NCBI RefSeq assembly: GCF_008727875.1
Contig: NZ_VTWS01000002.1
Coordinates: 372,001-436,000 of the forward strand
Reading direction: 5' to 3'
DNA: 64,000 bases
Origin: Larkinella humicola
Lineage (GTDB): Bacteria > Bacteroidota > Bacteroidia > Cytophagales > Spirosomataceae
Shown: positions 44,401 through 50,584 of the stretch, piece after piece
Layout of the letters: each line of letters begins with the position of its first letter
Position numbering within the stretch: the first letter of the stretch is position 1
Program-made: the position numbers and the translations under genes
The notes under the pieces: model-generated
The model's database searches: none
What the model was told of the DNA's origin: nothing
Seen by the model: the letters and a program-made list of their open reading frames with translations, nothing else

Positions 44401-47400
44401 ATGAACACGACTCCTAAACCGAAACTCTACGCCCTGATCGTGGGCATCAACGACTACCGGGCTGACTTAATTTTGCAGGGGCAAATCCGGTTTCCAGCCC
44501 TCGGTGGCTGCGTCATGGATGCCCTCAAGGTGCAGCGATACCTGAAAAACGATCCCGCTTTCGAACCGCACGTTTTGCTATTGCAGGACAAAAAAGCCGA
44601 CAAAGCCAGCGTGGTTCATGCTTTTCGTGAGCATTTGGGCCAGGCGAAAGAGGGCGATGTAGCCCTGTTCTATTTCTCCGGACACGGCACGCAGGAATGG
44701 GCCGATCCAACCGTTTGGAAACACGAAACCGATGGTCGGCTGGAGTGTCTGGCCTGTCATTATGACGAACAAACCACTTCCGATTTTCTACTGGCAGACA
44801 AGGAGTTGCGGTATCTCATCCAGGAACTATCGGCCAAAAAACCGCACGTCGTTACCATTTTCGACTGCTGCCATTCGGGCGACAATACCCGCAACGGGGC
44901 ACTGGTGCAAACCGTGTTCAAAGACGAAGCTCCCCGCGAAAAACGCATACCGTTTGCGTTTGCCAAACGCCCCTGGGAGCAGTTTATTTTCGGACAGACG
45001 ATCGCTGCGGATACGATCCGGCAGCAGGGCGATGCGGTTGCCTTGCCCGAAGGAACGCACGTCCAGTTGTCCGCCTGCGAATCCGACGAATCGGCGGTAG
45101 AGGTCAGTGGCGAAGGCGTTTTTACCAAAACACTGCTGACGGTTTTGCGAGCGTCGGCGGGCGACCTGAGCTACTACACACTGCGGAGTCGGGTCCGGCA
45201 ATATCTGCGGAATGTGTACGAGCAAAAACCACGCATTTACGTCGCCAACGGGGATGATTCGCTGCTGCATACCACCTTTCTCAACCGACCGGGTCAACGG
45301 GGGCAATCGGCCATTGGCGAGGTGACCTACAACCGAAAAACCGGCTGGCAGTTGAACCTGGGCGCGATTCACGGCATTACAGTCGAAACCAAATCCATCA
45401 CGGTTTTCAATCCCGACGACCCCGGCCAGAAATACTCCGCCCAACCGGGCCTCATTCGGGTCGACTCGACGCAATTGCGGTTTGATCAGGCGGTCAATCT
45501 GAACCAGAATGCGGTTTTTCAGGCCACCATCGACGGCCTGATGATGCTTCCGCTGCCCATTACCCTCAAAAACAGGGGCGGTTTGCCGGAAAACCAGCAG
45601 ATGCTGCTTGACAAGCTCTCCAGCGAAAGCGGAGGGCTCATTGTGACCGAAGAACGGGAAGAGTTGGCAAAGTATGTGGTTCACGATCAGGATGGTCGCT
45701 ATTACATCACCTACCCCAACGACCCTTACCGCCCGCTGACGAACGTGATTGAAACCGCATCCGAAACGGCCATCCCGGAACTGGTGGAACAGTTGAAACA
45801 CCTGTCCCGCTGGGAATTTATGAACAGTCTGACCAATTCGGGCACCAACCAGCTACCGGGAAAACCGCTGACGGTTGAATTTGCCCGGATTGGGGCAGAC
45901 GGGCAACCAACGGCGATTTCTCCGAACAATGACCTCCTTCCGATCCACTATGAAAAACAGGCCAATGGCCGTTGGCAAAGCAACCTTCAGGTCAAGATCA
46001 CCAATCCAGCCAGCAACCAGCGTTCGCTCTATTGCTCGGCGCTGTATCTCTCGTCTACGTTTGAATCGTTCACCGGTTTTCTGAACCCCAAAGCGTATTT
46101 GCTGGAACCGGGCAATTCGGTTTATCTGGGTCTGAACAAAATGGACTACCTGCCCGCCACGTTGCAGGACACAATGCGGTTTTACAACTGGCCAATCCGT
46201 TTGGAACACATCAAACTGATTGTCAGCACCGATGAGTTCGACCCACAGGCACTGACGCTGGCCACGCTGCCCGATCCGCCCCTGCCCGGCGATGAAAACC
46301 GGGGCGGCAACCGGGGCGGTTTTGCAACCGATGACGTATCGGACCGTTCGATTCAACTGACGGGCTGGACGACGCAGTCCTATACCCTGGAACTGGTCAA
46401 TCCGGAGCCCAATGTGATTCTGGATACCGACCTCAACGCGATGCTCCACGATCCGGTTACAACGCCCTTTGCGTTGGGAATCTATTTCGATGCCCGTCCG
46501 GGAACGAACTGGGAAACCGATTACCAGCTCAAACCGGACATTACAGTGCTGGATTCGGCGCACCTGGACGAACGCGGGCTGATCAGCGACCTGGGTCTGG
46601 CTGCGGCCAACACGCTGGCCAACCGGTTGCGCAACCGGCAGTATGCGCAGGTAACCAAACGCTTCCCCAACCGCGTCCGGCTGGTTTCGGAGGGCGATTC
46701 GTGGTTTCAGCATCCGCTCGTGACCGACACCATCGACCACCTTTCCCGGGCGTTCGCCATCTATTGCGTGGCAGCCGCGGGCGATACGCTCCGAAATTAC
46801 CAGAAAACCGGTGAATACCTCGACGCCATCGATGAACAGAATCCGGCGTTTTTTCTCATCAGCGGGGGCGGCAACGACATTCTCGGCGATCAGTTCCGCA
46901 CGTTTCTGAAAGAAAATCCGGATATGAGCGAGCCGCCGGGCCAGAATCCGCGTCGGTTTCTGAATGACAAGGTGTTCGCCGAGCTGGATGCGTTGCGCGA
47001 CCTGTACAAAACAATGTTTGGTCACCTGAAAATCTATAAACCGGACCTCCAGATTCTGGTGCATGGCTACGACTACGTGATTCCGCTGCAAGTGACCAAC
47101 AAAGGCTGGCTGGGACGCTACATGATCGAAAAAGGCATCAATCGGCAGGAGGACCGATTTGCCACGATCCAATTTATTCTGGACGAGTTCAACAGCCGGA
47201 TCAAAACGGTGGCCGAAGCTTTCGAAAATGTTTCCTACCTCGACCTCCGCAAAACCGTCCGGCCCGACCAGTGGTACGACGAAATTCACCCGAACAGCGA
47301 CGGTTATCAACAGGTGGCGATGAAGTTCATGGAGCGCATCAACGCCGTACTTACCAAACGACCGGAACTCGCGCAGCCCCTGAACCAGAGCCGGGGCGAG

Positions 47401-48645
47401 GACTTTTTTTTCCCCCTCAGTGGTCGGGGACAGGTAGTGGCAAAGCCTCAATCAGGACCTACGCGGGAGATTGATTCTCCTGCTCCGGAAAAAAACCGCA
47501 GCGGTGGACGGGGCATTACCATCAACACGGCGAATGTCGAATATGAAACAGCCCCTTCCAGGTCGTCGCACATTCCCCCACCCGCCTTTACGCCCCCGCC
47601 CGCTCCGCCGATCAACAGCCCGGCTGAAGCCAACTCAACGGCCTCTTCGCTTCGCGAAGGCCAGCTTGATTATGACATTCCCGGTTCCATGAAGGTGAAT
47701 GCGCAAACGACCTGTACGGTGCGGATTGCAGGAAAGGAAGTGGAAGCGGCCTTGTTGAAGATTAGCGAAGAGAGTGTCCATCAGGACATTATCATCGGCA
47801 ACGAAATGAGTGTTCGGCTGGTCGATAGCTCGGGCGGGGAGTATTTCAAAATTACAACCACCAGCACCGAGCGGCAGGAAATCTGGACCGGCGACGACAC
47901 CCAGTGGAAGTTTTTTGTCCGACCGCTCAAAGCTGGTCGCCATCCGTTGCTGCTTCAGGTCACCGTACATCTGGGGAGCCGCTCCCGCGATCTGGACGTA
48001 CTGGAAAAAGAAGTACTGATCAGCAGTGACGATTCGGCCGTTCCCACACCCGACACGAAAGCCTGGAAACGGATTTTATTTCTTTCGGCCAACCCCATCA
48101 CCCACGAACCGTTGCGGCTGGGTGCCGAAGCCCGCGAGATCCAAGAGGAGCTGCGGGGGAGCGACGGGATTCTGTTTTCCACCAGCCTCGCCGTCACCCC
48201 CCGCACGTTGACGCGCTCCATTTTGCAGGAAAAACCGACCATCGTACATTTTTCCGGCCACGGCACCAGCGAAGGGCTGTGTCTGGAAACGGAAAGCGGG
48301 CAGTTGAAAACCGTCAGCGCCGAGGCTTTGGGACGACTTTTTGCGGTTTTCGACGACTCCGTGCAGTGCGTGCTGTTGAACGCCTGTTACTCCGAAACCC
48401 AGGCCCGTGCCATCGGCGAACACATTCCGTACGTGATCGGGATGCAACGTTCGATTGGCGACGAAGCCGCCATTGCTTTTTCGGCGACGTTTTACCAGGC
48501 CCTGGGTTCGGGGCTGTCGATTGTGGATGCCTATGATCTGGCCGTCGCCGGGATGGGCCTGGAAGACAACCGACAGGCATCGATCCCGGTTTTGCTAAAA
48601 AAGAACCCCGTCAGCGCCGGTCCGTCGCAAGGTCAAAGACCCTGA
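44401..48645 (+). CDS. Caspase-SGNH-CHAT multidomain protein
   Basis: A 1414-residue cytoplasmic protein without signal peptide or TM helix. Residues 8-300 are a caspase/metacaspase-like clan CD protease: H95 in YFSGHGTQE and C157 in DCCHSG. Residues about 320-740 are beta-rich; the part around LYCSALYLSSTFESFTGF ... LLEPGNSVYL resembles the DUF4384-like beta domain often found with bacterial caspases. Residues about 755-985 are an SGNH/GDSL hydrolase with S767 (EGDSWFQ), N825 (GGGND) and D960-x-x-H963. A Pro-rich linker (about 1040-1080) leads to a beta-sandwich (about 1085-1210) and a C-terminal CHAT protease domain (about 1215-1405) with H1287 (HFSGHG) and C1329 (LLNACYS). The last 13 residues are encoded by an interspersed repeat. 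All three catalytic centres look intact. The role is unknown; a protease-triggered stress or defence function is inference. Confidence 0.87.
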   Translation: MNTTPKPKLYALIVGINDYRADLILQGQIRFPALGGCVMDALKVQRYLKNDPAFEPHVLLLQDKKADKASVVHAFREHLGQAKEGDVALFYFSGHGTQEWADPTVWKHETDGRLECLACHYDEQTTSDFLLADKELRYLIQELSAKKPHVVTIFDCCHSGDNTRNGALVQTVFKDEAPREKRIPFAFAKRPWEQFIFGQTIAADTIRQQGDAVALPEGTHVQLSACESDESAVEVSGEGVFTKTLLTVLRASAGDLSYYTLRSRVRQYLRNVYEQKPRIYVANGDDSLLHTTFLNRPGQRGQSAIGEVTYNRKTGWQLNLGAIHGITVETKSITVFNPDDPGQKYSAQPGLIRVDSTQLRFDQAVNLNQNAVFQATIDGLMMLPLPITLKNRGGLPENQQMLLDKLSSESGGLIVTEEREELAKYVVHDQDGRYYITYPNDPYRPLTNVIETASETAIPELVEQLKHLSRWEFMNSLTNSGTNQLPGKPLTVEFARIGADGQPTAISPNNDLLPIHYEKQANGRWQSNLQVKITNPASNQRSLYCSALYLSSTFESFTGFLNPKAYLLEPGNSVYLGLNKMDYLPATLQDTMRFYNWPIRLEHIKLIVSTDEFDPQALTLATLPDPPLPGDENRGGNRGGFATDDVSDRSIQLTGWTTQSYTLELVNPEPNVILDTDLNAMLHDPVTTPFALGIYFDARPGTNWETDYQLKPDITVLDSAHLDERGLISDLGLAAANTLANRLRNRQYAQVTKRFPNRVRLVSEGDSWFQHPLVTDTIDHLSRAFAIYCVAAAGDTLRNYQKTGEYLDAIDEQNPAFFLISGGGNDILGDQFRTFLKENPDMSEPPGQNPRRFLNDKVFAELDALRDLYKTMFGHLKIYKPDLQILVHGYDYVIPLQVTNKGWLGRYMIEKGINRQEDRFATIQFILDEFNSRIKTVAEAFENVSYLDLRKTVRPDQWYDEIHPNSDGYQQVAMKFMERINAVLTKRPELAQPLNQSRGEDFFFPLSGRGQVVAKPQSGPTREIDSPAPEKNRSGGRGITINTANVEYETAPSRSSHIPPPAFTPPPAPPINSPAEANSTASSLREGQLDYDIPGSMKVNAQTTCTVRIAGKEVEAALLKISEESVHQDIIIGNEMSVRLVDSSGGEYFKITTTSTERQEIWTGDDTQWKFFVRPLKAGRHPLLLQVTVHLGSRSRDLDVLEKEVLISSDDSAVPTPDTKAWKRILFLSANPITHEPLRLGAEAREIQEELRGSDGILFSTSLAVTPRTLTRSILQEKPTIVHFSGHGTSEGLCLETESGQLKTVSAEALGRLFAVFDDSVQCVLLNACYSETQARAIGEHIPYVIGMQRSIGDEAAIAFSATFYQALGSGLSIVDAYDLAVAGMGLEDNRQASIPVLLKKNPVSAGPSQGQRP

Positions 48646-48653
48646 CAGCGGTT
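48604..48653 (+). repeat. Interspersed ~50-bp element, copy 1
   Basis: This 50-bp unit is about 88% identical to the one at 48700-48748 (opposite strand). It encodes the final NPVSAGPSQGQRP and the TGA stop of the caspase-CHAT gene. Perfect 22-bp inverted repeats surround it (48586-48607 and 48650-48671); the left arm is coding sequence and the right arm its reverse complement. Confidence 0.8.
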
Positions 48654-48699
48654 CTTTTTTAGCAAAACCGGAACCAAACTAAAGATTGCGTTATTGTCT

Positions 48700-48748
48700 A
48701 ACCCTGTCAGGGTCTTCGACCGTACGACGGACCGGCGCTGACAGGGTT
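48700..48748 (-). repeat. Interspersed ~50-bp element, copy 2
   Basis: Reverse-oriented copy of the same unit at the 3' end of the convergent gene, encoding NPVSAGPSYGRRP and its TGA stop. It is bounded by perfect 29-bp inverted repeats (48682-48710 and 48738-48766) that include the CCCTGTCAG/CTGACAGGG ends of the element plus about 20 bp of gene-specific sequence. Confidence 0.8.
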
Positions 48749-50584
48749 AGACAATAACGCAATCTTCCCGTCCATCGTCGTCACCAGCACCTGCTTGTTC
48801 TTCAACGGCCAGACGCGATTGAGCATCGCATTCGACAGTTTGTGCGACCAGAGCAGCTTGCGGTTCCGGCGGTCAATGACGTACAACGCGCCCTCGTCGG
48901 TCGGTACGTAAACCAGTCCGTCGCGCTCGGTCAGCGGCCCCGGACTGATTTCGTAGCCGTACCGGCAATTGACAAACCATGCGCCTTGCCCATTGGCCGA
49001 GTTGGTGGGAATGGCCCAGACGGAATCCTGCATACACTTGACGTAAATCAGCGAACGGTCTGCCGACACGCCCATCGACTCGAAGCCTTTGTGCTGGCTG
49101 GTTTTCCAGATTTCCTTGCCGGTTTCGGCATCGATGGCCGTCACGGTGCGGTCGGGTGTCTGGATGAACAGGCGGTTTTTGACCAGAACCGGCACACAGG
49201 CTGCGGGCGAGAAATTACGCATTTTCCCGTTGGTCCACCGCCAGACCGAATCACCGGTTTTCTTGTTCAGGGCATACAATGACGAGCCCCACGAACCGAA
49301 ATACACGCGCTTTTTGTCGACCACCGGCACCGATTCCACAAAACCTTTGACGCCCGTGAACGTCCAGCGTACCGCGCCATCCGCCAGCGACAACGCCCGG
49401 AATTTCCCTTCCGAACTGCCGATAAAAACCACCTTGCCATCGATCACCGGCGACGCCACGATGGGTTGGCCGGTTTCCTGCTTCCAGAGCAGGGTGCCGC
49501 TGCGTTTGTCGAGGCAATACACGGTGCCATCGGTTGAAGCGACCACGACCCGGTTTTTGCGAACCGCCGGGGTTGAATAGACTTTCCCGCCCGTGGCAAA
49601 CCGCCAGCGCACCGCTCCGTCGGCCGTAGAGAGTGCCACGATCTGCCCGCTGGTGTTGGGATAGATGCAGAAACCGTCGCTTTCAACGATACCCGCCCCA
49701 ATGTCGCTGCTGTCCTGTTTGGCCCAGACCGGTTTTACGTTGGCGTATTGCTCGTTCAGGCTATAGTCGGGACGCGGGTAGGATTTGGCCGTTTGCTGGC
49801 TGAAATGATGGTTTTCCAGCACGATGGTGCGCCAGGCGGTTTTTGTTGCCAGGCCGGGCGTCCGTTCGGCAAACGTCATGGTATCGTTTCGCATCGTGAC
49901 GATGTTGTACCCACCCACTTGATCCTTCGCCCGCAGGTTGGAACGGCCCATCGTTCCCGGAATGCCTTCAAAATTGAGTTCGCGGTTGGCGTGTCCGTGG
50001 CCGCAGAAAGCTGCCTGAACGTTGGTTTTCTTGAGTTCGTCAATCAGCAAATACCAGTTTTCCAGCGACTCATCGAGTGGATAGTGGTTCATGAAAATAA
50101 CCGGCTGGTCGGAACCCTTCAGTTTCCCGACCTCAGACCGGAGCCACAGCACGTCTTCGCGGGCCACCAGCCCCGGCGACATCCGCATGTTGGGACCACT
50201 GCCGCAGCCGATAAACCGGTATTTCCCGACGGTGAACGCAAACCGTTCTGCTCCGAATACCTTCCGGAAACTGTTGCAGCCGTTCTCCGACCATTTCGTG
50301 TCGTGATTGCCCGGAAAAATGTACCACTTCTTGTTCAGCCCGTCCAGAATCTGTTTGGCAATCCGGAACTCTTCATCCGAGCCAAAATCGGTGACATCGC
50401 CCGTAAAAACCGCAAAATCGAGATCGGTCTGGGCATTGATGTCGTTGACAGTTCGCTGTAAATCTTCGGCAGCGGTGGCGGGTGCGCCGACGTGGGTGTC
50501 GGTTACAAACGCAAACCGGATGGGTTGGGTGAGTGCCGGTTTTAACCCGAGCAGGGAAACCAGCAGGAGGGCGAGATACTTCAT
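48707..50584 (-). CDS. Metallophosphoesterase fused to PQQ-like beta-propeller
   Basis: A 625-residue exported protein (signal peptide about 1-19). Residues 22-260 are a calcineurin-like metallophosphoesterase with D29-x-H31, GDVTD (D63), GNHD (N93, H94), H167 and GHGH (H196, H198). Residues about 290-615 are WD/PQQ-like propeller blades (e.g. AVRWRFATGGKVYSTPAVRKNRVVVASTDGTVYCLDKRSGTLLWKQETGQPIVASPVIDGKVVFIGSSEGKFRAL). It could hydrolyse a phosphoester in the periplasm, with the propeller as a binding platform. The start is at 50584, the first Met of the signal peptide. The C-terminus comes from the repeat element. Confidence 0.86.
   Translation of the reverse strand: MKYLALLLVSLLGLKPALTQPIRFAFVTDTHVGAPATAAEDLQRTVNDINAQTDLDFAVFTGDVTDFGSDEEFRIAKQILDGLNKKWYIFPGNHDTKWSENGCNSFRKVFGAERFAFTVGKYRFIGCGSGPNMRMSPGLVAREDVLWLRSEVGKLKGSDQPVIFMNHYPLDESLENWYLLIDELKKTNVQAAFCGHGHANRELNFEGIPGTMGRSNLRAKDQVGGYNIVTMRNDTMTFAERTPGLATKTAWRTIVLENHHFSQQTAKSYPRPDYSLNEQYANVKPVWAKQDSSDIGAGIVESDGFCIYPNTSGQIVALSTADGAVRWRFATGGKVYSTPAVRKNRVVVASTDGTVYCLDKRSGTLLWKQETGQPIVASPVIDGKVVFIGSSEGKFRALSLADGAVRWTFTGVKGFVESVPVVDKKRVYFGSWGSSLYALNKKTGDSVWRWTNGKMRNFSPAACVPVLVKNRLFIQTPDRTVTAIDAETGKEIWKTSQHKGFESMGVSADRSLIYVKCMQDSVWAIPTNSANGQGAWFVNCRYGYEISPGPLTERDGLVYVPTDEGALYVIDRRNRKLLWSHKLSNAMLNRVWPLKNKQVLVTTMDGKIALLSNPVSAGPSYGRRP

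Follow-up and report, generated by a model that had tools for sequence, protein, structure and literature searches.

A Larkinella protein that joins caspase-like, SGNH hydrolase and CHAT domains, with conserved basic-glycine joints and a linker resembling EF-Tu switch I

In the SAVED-CHAT system, the partner of the CHAT protease is a prokaryotic caspase (PCaspase cascade), and the known bacterial CHAT–caspase pathways use, to our knowledge, separate proteins. Here we analyse a 64,000-nucleotide stretch of Larkinella humicola DNA (the window), in which one gene encodes a caspase-like domain, an SGNH hydrolase, and a CHAT protease in a single chain. The protein may work like SAVED-CHAT, Craspase, and EACC1 but belongs to none of them, because it lacks their extra domains or does not reach the cut-offs tested. 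Compared with SAVED-CHAT (PDB 8tl0), caspase and CHAT are here in one chain, with the SGNH hydrolase between them. Pfam finds no SAVED domain in the window's protein, and the PADLOC SAVED_CHAT model matches it over profile positions 347-452 of 498 only (E = 0.0045). A search for SAVED genes in the genome gives no match, and control genomes likewise give none.

Craspase TPR-CHAT of type III-E CRISPR systems has in common with the protein a separase-like His-Cys CHAT protease (PMC9729208). It differs in that the caspase is here fused in cis and the scanned flanking genes are not CRISPR genes. The window's protein has no TPR repeats at E up to 1 in the Pfam scan, and the search for a CRISPR link gives a single weak match to the Csm1 model (20.7 bits vs 170). 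The EACC1/EACC2 conflict systems are alike in pairing a constant caspase module with attached domains that vary, and the authors propose autopeptidase activation for them; both ideas are already in print (PMC8195603). EACC1 consists of an EACC domain plus receptors, whereas catalytic modules are found here instead, and its model NF047832 scores 51.1 on the window's protein against a cut-off of 140. The new elements are the conserved basic-Gly joints and the likeness of a linker to EF-Tu switch I. A full-text literature search, judged by titles and the starts of abstracts and with most subscription journals outside its scope, finds no description of a single-chain caspase–SGNH–CHAT protein, nor of its basic-Gly joints or EF-Tu likeness.

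The original prediction that one open reading frame carries all three domains, with intact catalytic residues, holds in the profile searches it called for. The Peptidase_C14, SGNH, and CHAT profiles match the window's protein with 78.9, 41.2, and 52.5 bits, above the Pfam cut-offs of 21.4, 32.9, and 24, respectively (Table 1). PADLOC recognises the protein with its caspase model (242 bits) and its chat model (56.9 bits), and the C-terminal domain has the CHAT fold. The closest solved folds to the N-terminal domain include metacaspases, MALT1, and GSU0716; in contrast to metacaspases and the MALT1 paracaspase, the domain is here bacterial and fused to a hydrolase and CHAT. The His-Cys dyad H95/C157 is kept in all 29 aligned rows that have the caspase (29-row counts leave out P0125, which is without it). 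In the CHAT alignment, H1287 is kept in 30 of 30 rows and C1329 in 29 of 30, and N825, D960, and H963 are kept in all 19 rows having Ser at position 767.

Basic residues followed by Gly are conserved where the chain is predicted to be flexible. In the AlphaFold2 model, the predicted local distance difference test score (pLDDT) falls below 50 in segments 299-304, 632-639, 642-654, and 721-727 and in a large part of the linker 991-1085. In the joint 624-656, [KR]G occurs in 112 of 125 proteins. When the set is thinned to proteins less than 60% identical to one another, it occurs in 38 of 43 (2000 shuffles: mean 16.5, maximum 26). These counts come from an alignment of all 125 joints. Column 638 contains RG in 75 and KG in 20 of the 124 aligned proteins (95 together), and column 725 contains RG in 52 and KG in 52 of 117 (104 together). 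The joint 716-737 has [KR]G in 104 of the 114 proteins having the SGNH Ser, and in 31 of 39 after thinning (2000 shuffles: mean 7.3, maximum 16). In the linker ahead of CHAT, RG is the most over-represented of the 400 dipeptides (30 vs 8.8 expected in 29 proteins, reached in 0 of 2000 shuffles; thinned, 18 vs 6.6 in 20 proteins, 0 of 1000 shuffles). In the same 20 proteins, RG is not in excess in the caspase domain (17 vs 22 expected) or in the sandwich and CHAT domains (4 vs 21 expected). Seven of the nine RG dipeptides of the window's protein lie within 125 low-pLDDT residues of 1414 (binomial p = 4e-5, Arg placement allowed for). A loose pattern for short linear motif A of the linker, RGxx[RKV][AS]KP[PQ], matches 11 of the 29 linkers, across clades.

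A position where Arg and Lys substitute freely for each other ahead of an unvarying Gly resembles the P1-P1' site of a basic-specific protease. Metacaspases and MALT1 are Arg/Lys- or Arg-specific at P1, and the nearest folds together with the joint sites predict an Arg/Lys preference for the caspase domain here. The conservation of [KR]G with free exchange of R and K fits metacaspase-like cleavage, and therefore self-processing is the best-supported mechanism. Separase, a relative of the CHAT protease, cuts after ExxR (PMC9729208).

The dipeptides could instead form structural or flexible hinges, or weak nucleic-acid-binding RG motifs, in a protein that functions uncut as a single enzyme complex. 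RNA-binding proteins are known to contain RG repeats, and the position of R725-G726 at the start of a predicted helix also speaks for this explanation, which we consider a modest possibility. However, K replaces R freely at 725 (52 vs 52), and residue 638 lies within a low-confidence variable joint. The order of the two residues also matters in the joint 624-656: in 43 proteins, the observed and expected counts are 39 and 10.2 for RG and 27 and 9.3 for KG, but 6 and 10.5 for GR and 6 and 9.6 for GK. Both the exchange at 725 and this dependence on order agree more closely with a P1-P1' site than with an RGG box.

The linker ahead of CHAT contains a second element, the segment RGITINTANVEYETA, which by sequence closely resembles switch I of EF-Tu; 12 of its 15 residues are identical to those of the genome's own EF-Tu (RGITINTSHVEYSTA). 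Whole-protein searches return EF-Tu on approximately residues 1023-1061 (best E 0.0057 in NCBIfam and 0.023 in PDB). The linker is not an EF-Tu GTPase domain, as these residues alone match, at E 0.0057 and with 15.5 bits vs 452. A comparison of the 29 proteins with NCBIfam gives matches to EF-Tu models for two of them, with E of 0.0012 at best; other families give E of 0.028 or more, except for the caspase model and an AmpD model, which reflects the amidase. In pairwise comparison with EF-Tu, P0002 scores 77, P0038 of another clade 75 (29 residues aligned), and the window's protein 72, with a maximum of 48 in 580 shuffles.

A profile (A1) built from six linkers without any EF-Tu sequence scores 30.9 bits on EF-Tu and 11.9 on the best other frame (7256 frames minus the family's own), although its E-values are somewhat flattered because the linkers were chosen by likeness to the window's motif. 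P0038 and P0002 also stand on their own by the pairwise scores above. Across 100 column shuffles of the profile, EF-Tu scores no higher than 2.1 and every other frame no higher than 18.7. With RGITIN fixed, EF-Tu scores 34.8 in that run, compared with a maximum of 21.4 in 200 shuffles, indicating that the likeness extends past RGITIN. The profile search finds a match in 200 of the 222 genomes of the taxonomic family. Among the matches listed outside four proteins of the protein family, all are EF-Tu-sized frames except two (254 and 152 aa), with E from 1e-8 to 2e-6, and in the sequence searched EF-Tu is the only strong non-family match among those listed. The likeness of the linker to EF-Tu switch I is far beyond chance in some members. 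In the tree, non-carriers separate the two clades in which the motif is prominent. The segment 1037-1051 is not a recent copy of tuf, because its 15-residue core shares 32 of 45 nucleotides with the genome's own tuf, with identical codons at 5 of 15 positions and identical third bases at 6 of 15.

Two further candidate likenesses were dropped. A domain II piece (DVFSISGRGT) stays below the shuffle maximum of 48 in both P0046 (score 47) and P0124 (score 43), and its SGRG overlaps the family motif RGxx[RKV][AS]KP. A likeness to the EF-Tu N-terminus (FTRSKP) in P0044 and P0121 scores 27 and 26 over six residues.

We give about an even chance to a mechanism in which self-cleavage between Arg or Lys and the next Gly, at conserved sites of the flexible joints, releases both the hydrolase and CHAT. 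Before cleavage, the chain would keep its modules silent. A trigger would activate the caspase domain or CHAT, and the metacaspase-type caspase domain, or CHAT itself, would cut the basic-Gly joints and shift the modules from silent to active. The freed CHAT could then damage proteins of the cell, and the freed SGNH hydrolase could damage ester bonds in membrane lipid or cell wall. The EF-Tu-like segment could be the recognition sequence of a protease, one of the two in the chain, that has EF-Tu as its substrate, or a built-in bait for an EF-Tu attacker; a functional role of either kind, substrate or bait, is somewhat unlikely. The combined proposal, a polyprotein death protein with metacaspase-type self-cutting at Arg/Lys-Gly and a copy of EF-Tu switch I as target (translation shut-off) or guarded decoy, is likewise tentative.

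Self-processing, as suggested by the original prediction, has independent support in the conserved, orientation-specific [KR]G of predicted flexible joints, although cleavage itself is a prediction from sequence pattern. Several observations weigh against the mechanism. [KR]G is missing from the joint 624-656 in 13 of 125 proteins, and in the predicted model R725-G726 starts a helix, so a structural reason for the conserved [KR]G there is possible. The amidase–caspase joint of relatives shows the pattern only weakly, with RG no higher than fifth (5 vs 0.9 expected in 14 proteins thinned from 32). R300 and R1252 are conserved in near relatives only (R300 in 6 of 89 proteins, or 1 of 29 after thinning; R1252 in 6 of 29, or 1 of 13 after thinning). 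AlphaFold2 leaves the linker preceding CHAT unplaced. The EF-Tu-like motif is found in 7 of 29 linkers, the weak P0030 included; P0001, a close relative, retains it only in part, and it is absent from the linker of L. rosea P0003. A weight matrix of the joint 624-656 ranks EF-Tu R59 third of the eight EF-Tu [KR]G sites, and 6.4% of 329 background sites score at least as high; the prediction of R59 as a substrate was dropped as unspecific.

The protein belongs to a modular family in which a caspase core bears many different combinations of amidase, SGNH, and CHAT. The search finds 592 homologues. The best 120 of these, tabulated by Pfam content, all have C14, in combination with amidase and SGNH (49), SGNH (37), amidase (9), SGNH and CHAT (8), amidase, SGNH, and CHAT (6), amidase and CHAT (6), CHAT alone (2), or none of them (3). 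Where the layout was inspected, the domain order is amidase, caspase, SGNH, CHAT. By Pfam, 22 of the best 120 combine CHAT with C14, and the alignment shows CHAT in P0030 and P0086 too. Since homologues have the same domain joining, the fusion is real, and an artificial joining of separate genes by sequencing error is ruled out. The nearest homologues are those of L. punicea (94% identity), L. knui (81%), L. rosea (77%), and L. bovis (75%). P0156 and P0195 are further caspase and CHAT chains outside the 29-protein set; P0156, from Nostoc linckia, has caspase, sigma-70 region 4, and CHAT in one chain of 920 aa.

Relatives with split genes (three frames in G213, L163; two in a Persicitalea metagenome-assembled genome, L074) were set aside as evidence, because broken or frameshifted copies are indistinguishable from true separate genes. 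The three frames of the former (L163:1337-9999), in a genome of the same family, are encoded on the other strand from an nSTAND1 NTPase gene. In Persicitalea (L070:10980-12843), the caspase gene overlaps at its 3' end with a second gene of weak CHAT likeness (22 bits, short of the cut-off of 24), and one further small gene follows. Peptidase_C14 matches the L. humicola genome 14 times, and six of these matches fall in a stretch of about 43 kb of contig 16 (G000:C16:416370-459072).

The flanking genes encode dinB, a metallophosphatase/pyrroloquinoline quinone (PQQ)-propeller protein, a histidine kinase, and a response-regulator oxidoreductase, and look like housekeeping genes. Among six neighbours in the window, PADLOC gives weak partial matches for two only, with 19.1 bits at best. 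The defence role suggested by the original prediction is therefore unsupported by the neighbours. The gene is present in five of nine genomes of the genus, including L. humicola, and in the four other Larkinella carriers it also lies between dinB and the PQQ gene, with two extra frames separating it from dinB in L. rosea. In G138 and G140, the PQQ and kinase genes are present, but the 14 kb examined show neither the caspase gene nor dinB. The protein could be a housekeeping enzyme of stress or cell-wall turnover, in which caspase and CHAT regulate SGNH and amidase modules. The neighbours, the stable synteny in five Larkinella genomes, and the cell-wall amidase modules in many relatives agree with such a role. 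However, we consider it unlikely: the distribution is patchy, a sandwich and CHAT query matching 14 of 222 genomes of the taxonomic family, with a fused frame above 1400 aa in six of these (five Larkinella, including L. humicola, and one other), and the effector modules are exchanged among members in the manner of known conflict systems.

At 48586-48766 of the window, nested inverted repeats, a repetitive extragenic palindromic (REP)-like element, lie at the 3' ends of two convergent genes and contribute NPVSAGPS-type tails to both proteins. The 18-base repeat core has 10 genome matches with up to 2 mismatches (control 0), with facing pairs on C13 and C14.

Table 1 Features of the caspase–SGNH–CHAT gene in the window
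Feature	Position	Strand	Details
Caspase–SGNH–CHAT gene	44401..48645	+	1414 aa
Caspase-like (Peptidase_C14) domain	44428..45243	+	Residues 10-281; H95 = 44683-44685, C157 = 44869-44871
Beta-rich middle region	45298..46272	+	Residues 300-624; from secondary structure of the model
Flexible joint	46276..46365	+	Residues 626-655; RG at 634 and at 638
R725-G726, joint preceding SGNH domain	46573..46578	+	Within low-confidence segment 721-727
SGNH (GDSL) hydrolase domain	46678..47358	+	Residues 760-986; S767, N825, D960, H963
Long linker ahead of CHAT	47371..47655	+	Residues 991-1085; pLDDT mostly <50; RG at 998, 1009, 1037
Short linear motif A, RGQVVAKPQ	47425..47451	+	Type RGxx[RKV][AS]KP[PQ]
EF-Tu switch-I-like segment RGITINTANVEYETA	47509..47553	+	Residues 1037-1051
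Beta-sandwich preceding CHAT	47659..48015	+	Residues 1087-1205
CHAT protease domain	48061..48600	+	Residues 1221-1400; H1287 = 48259-48261, C1329 = 48385-48387

The E. coli Lit protease, an unrelated protease, cuts EF-Tu at G59-I60, within the switch I region that the linker here resembles; no Lit-like domain is among the Pfam matches of the window's protein. Plant receptors carry decoys of effector targets. By analogy, the linker could be an integrated bait, such that a phage or competitor factor attacking EF-Tu switch I also hits the linker, frees CHAT, and kills the cell, and the extent of the likeness past RGITIN, its occurrence in two clades with non-carriers between, as a variable bait would show, and the cleavage of EF-Tu by Lit upon activation by a phage capsid peptide (PMC9712102) are in line with this, but the drift of the motif in P0001, the 22 of 29 linkers that lack it, and the fact that no EF-Tu attacker is known here make it quite unlikely.

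Both proteases and the hydrolase in one chain with basic-Gly joints would make a compact, directly testable protease switch, for which exact cut sites are predicted. If the EF-Tu likeness is functional, it would name the cellular target or the guarded protein of a caspase-like system. If it is a bait, it would represent an integrated decoy in bacterial immunity.

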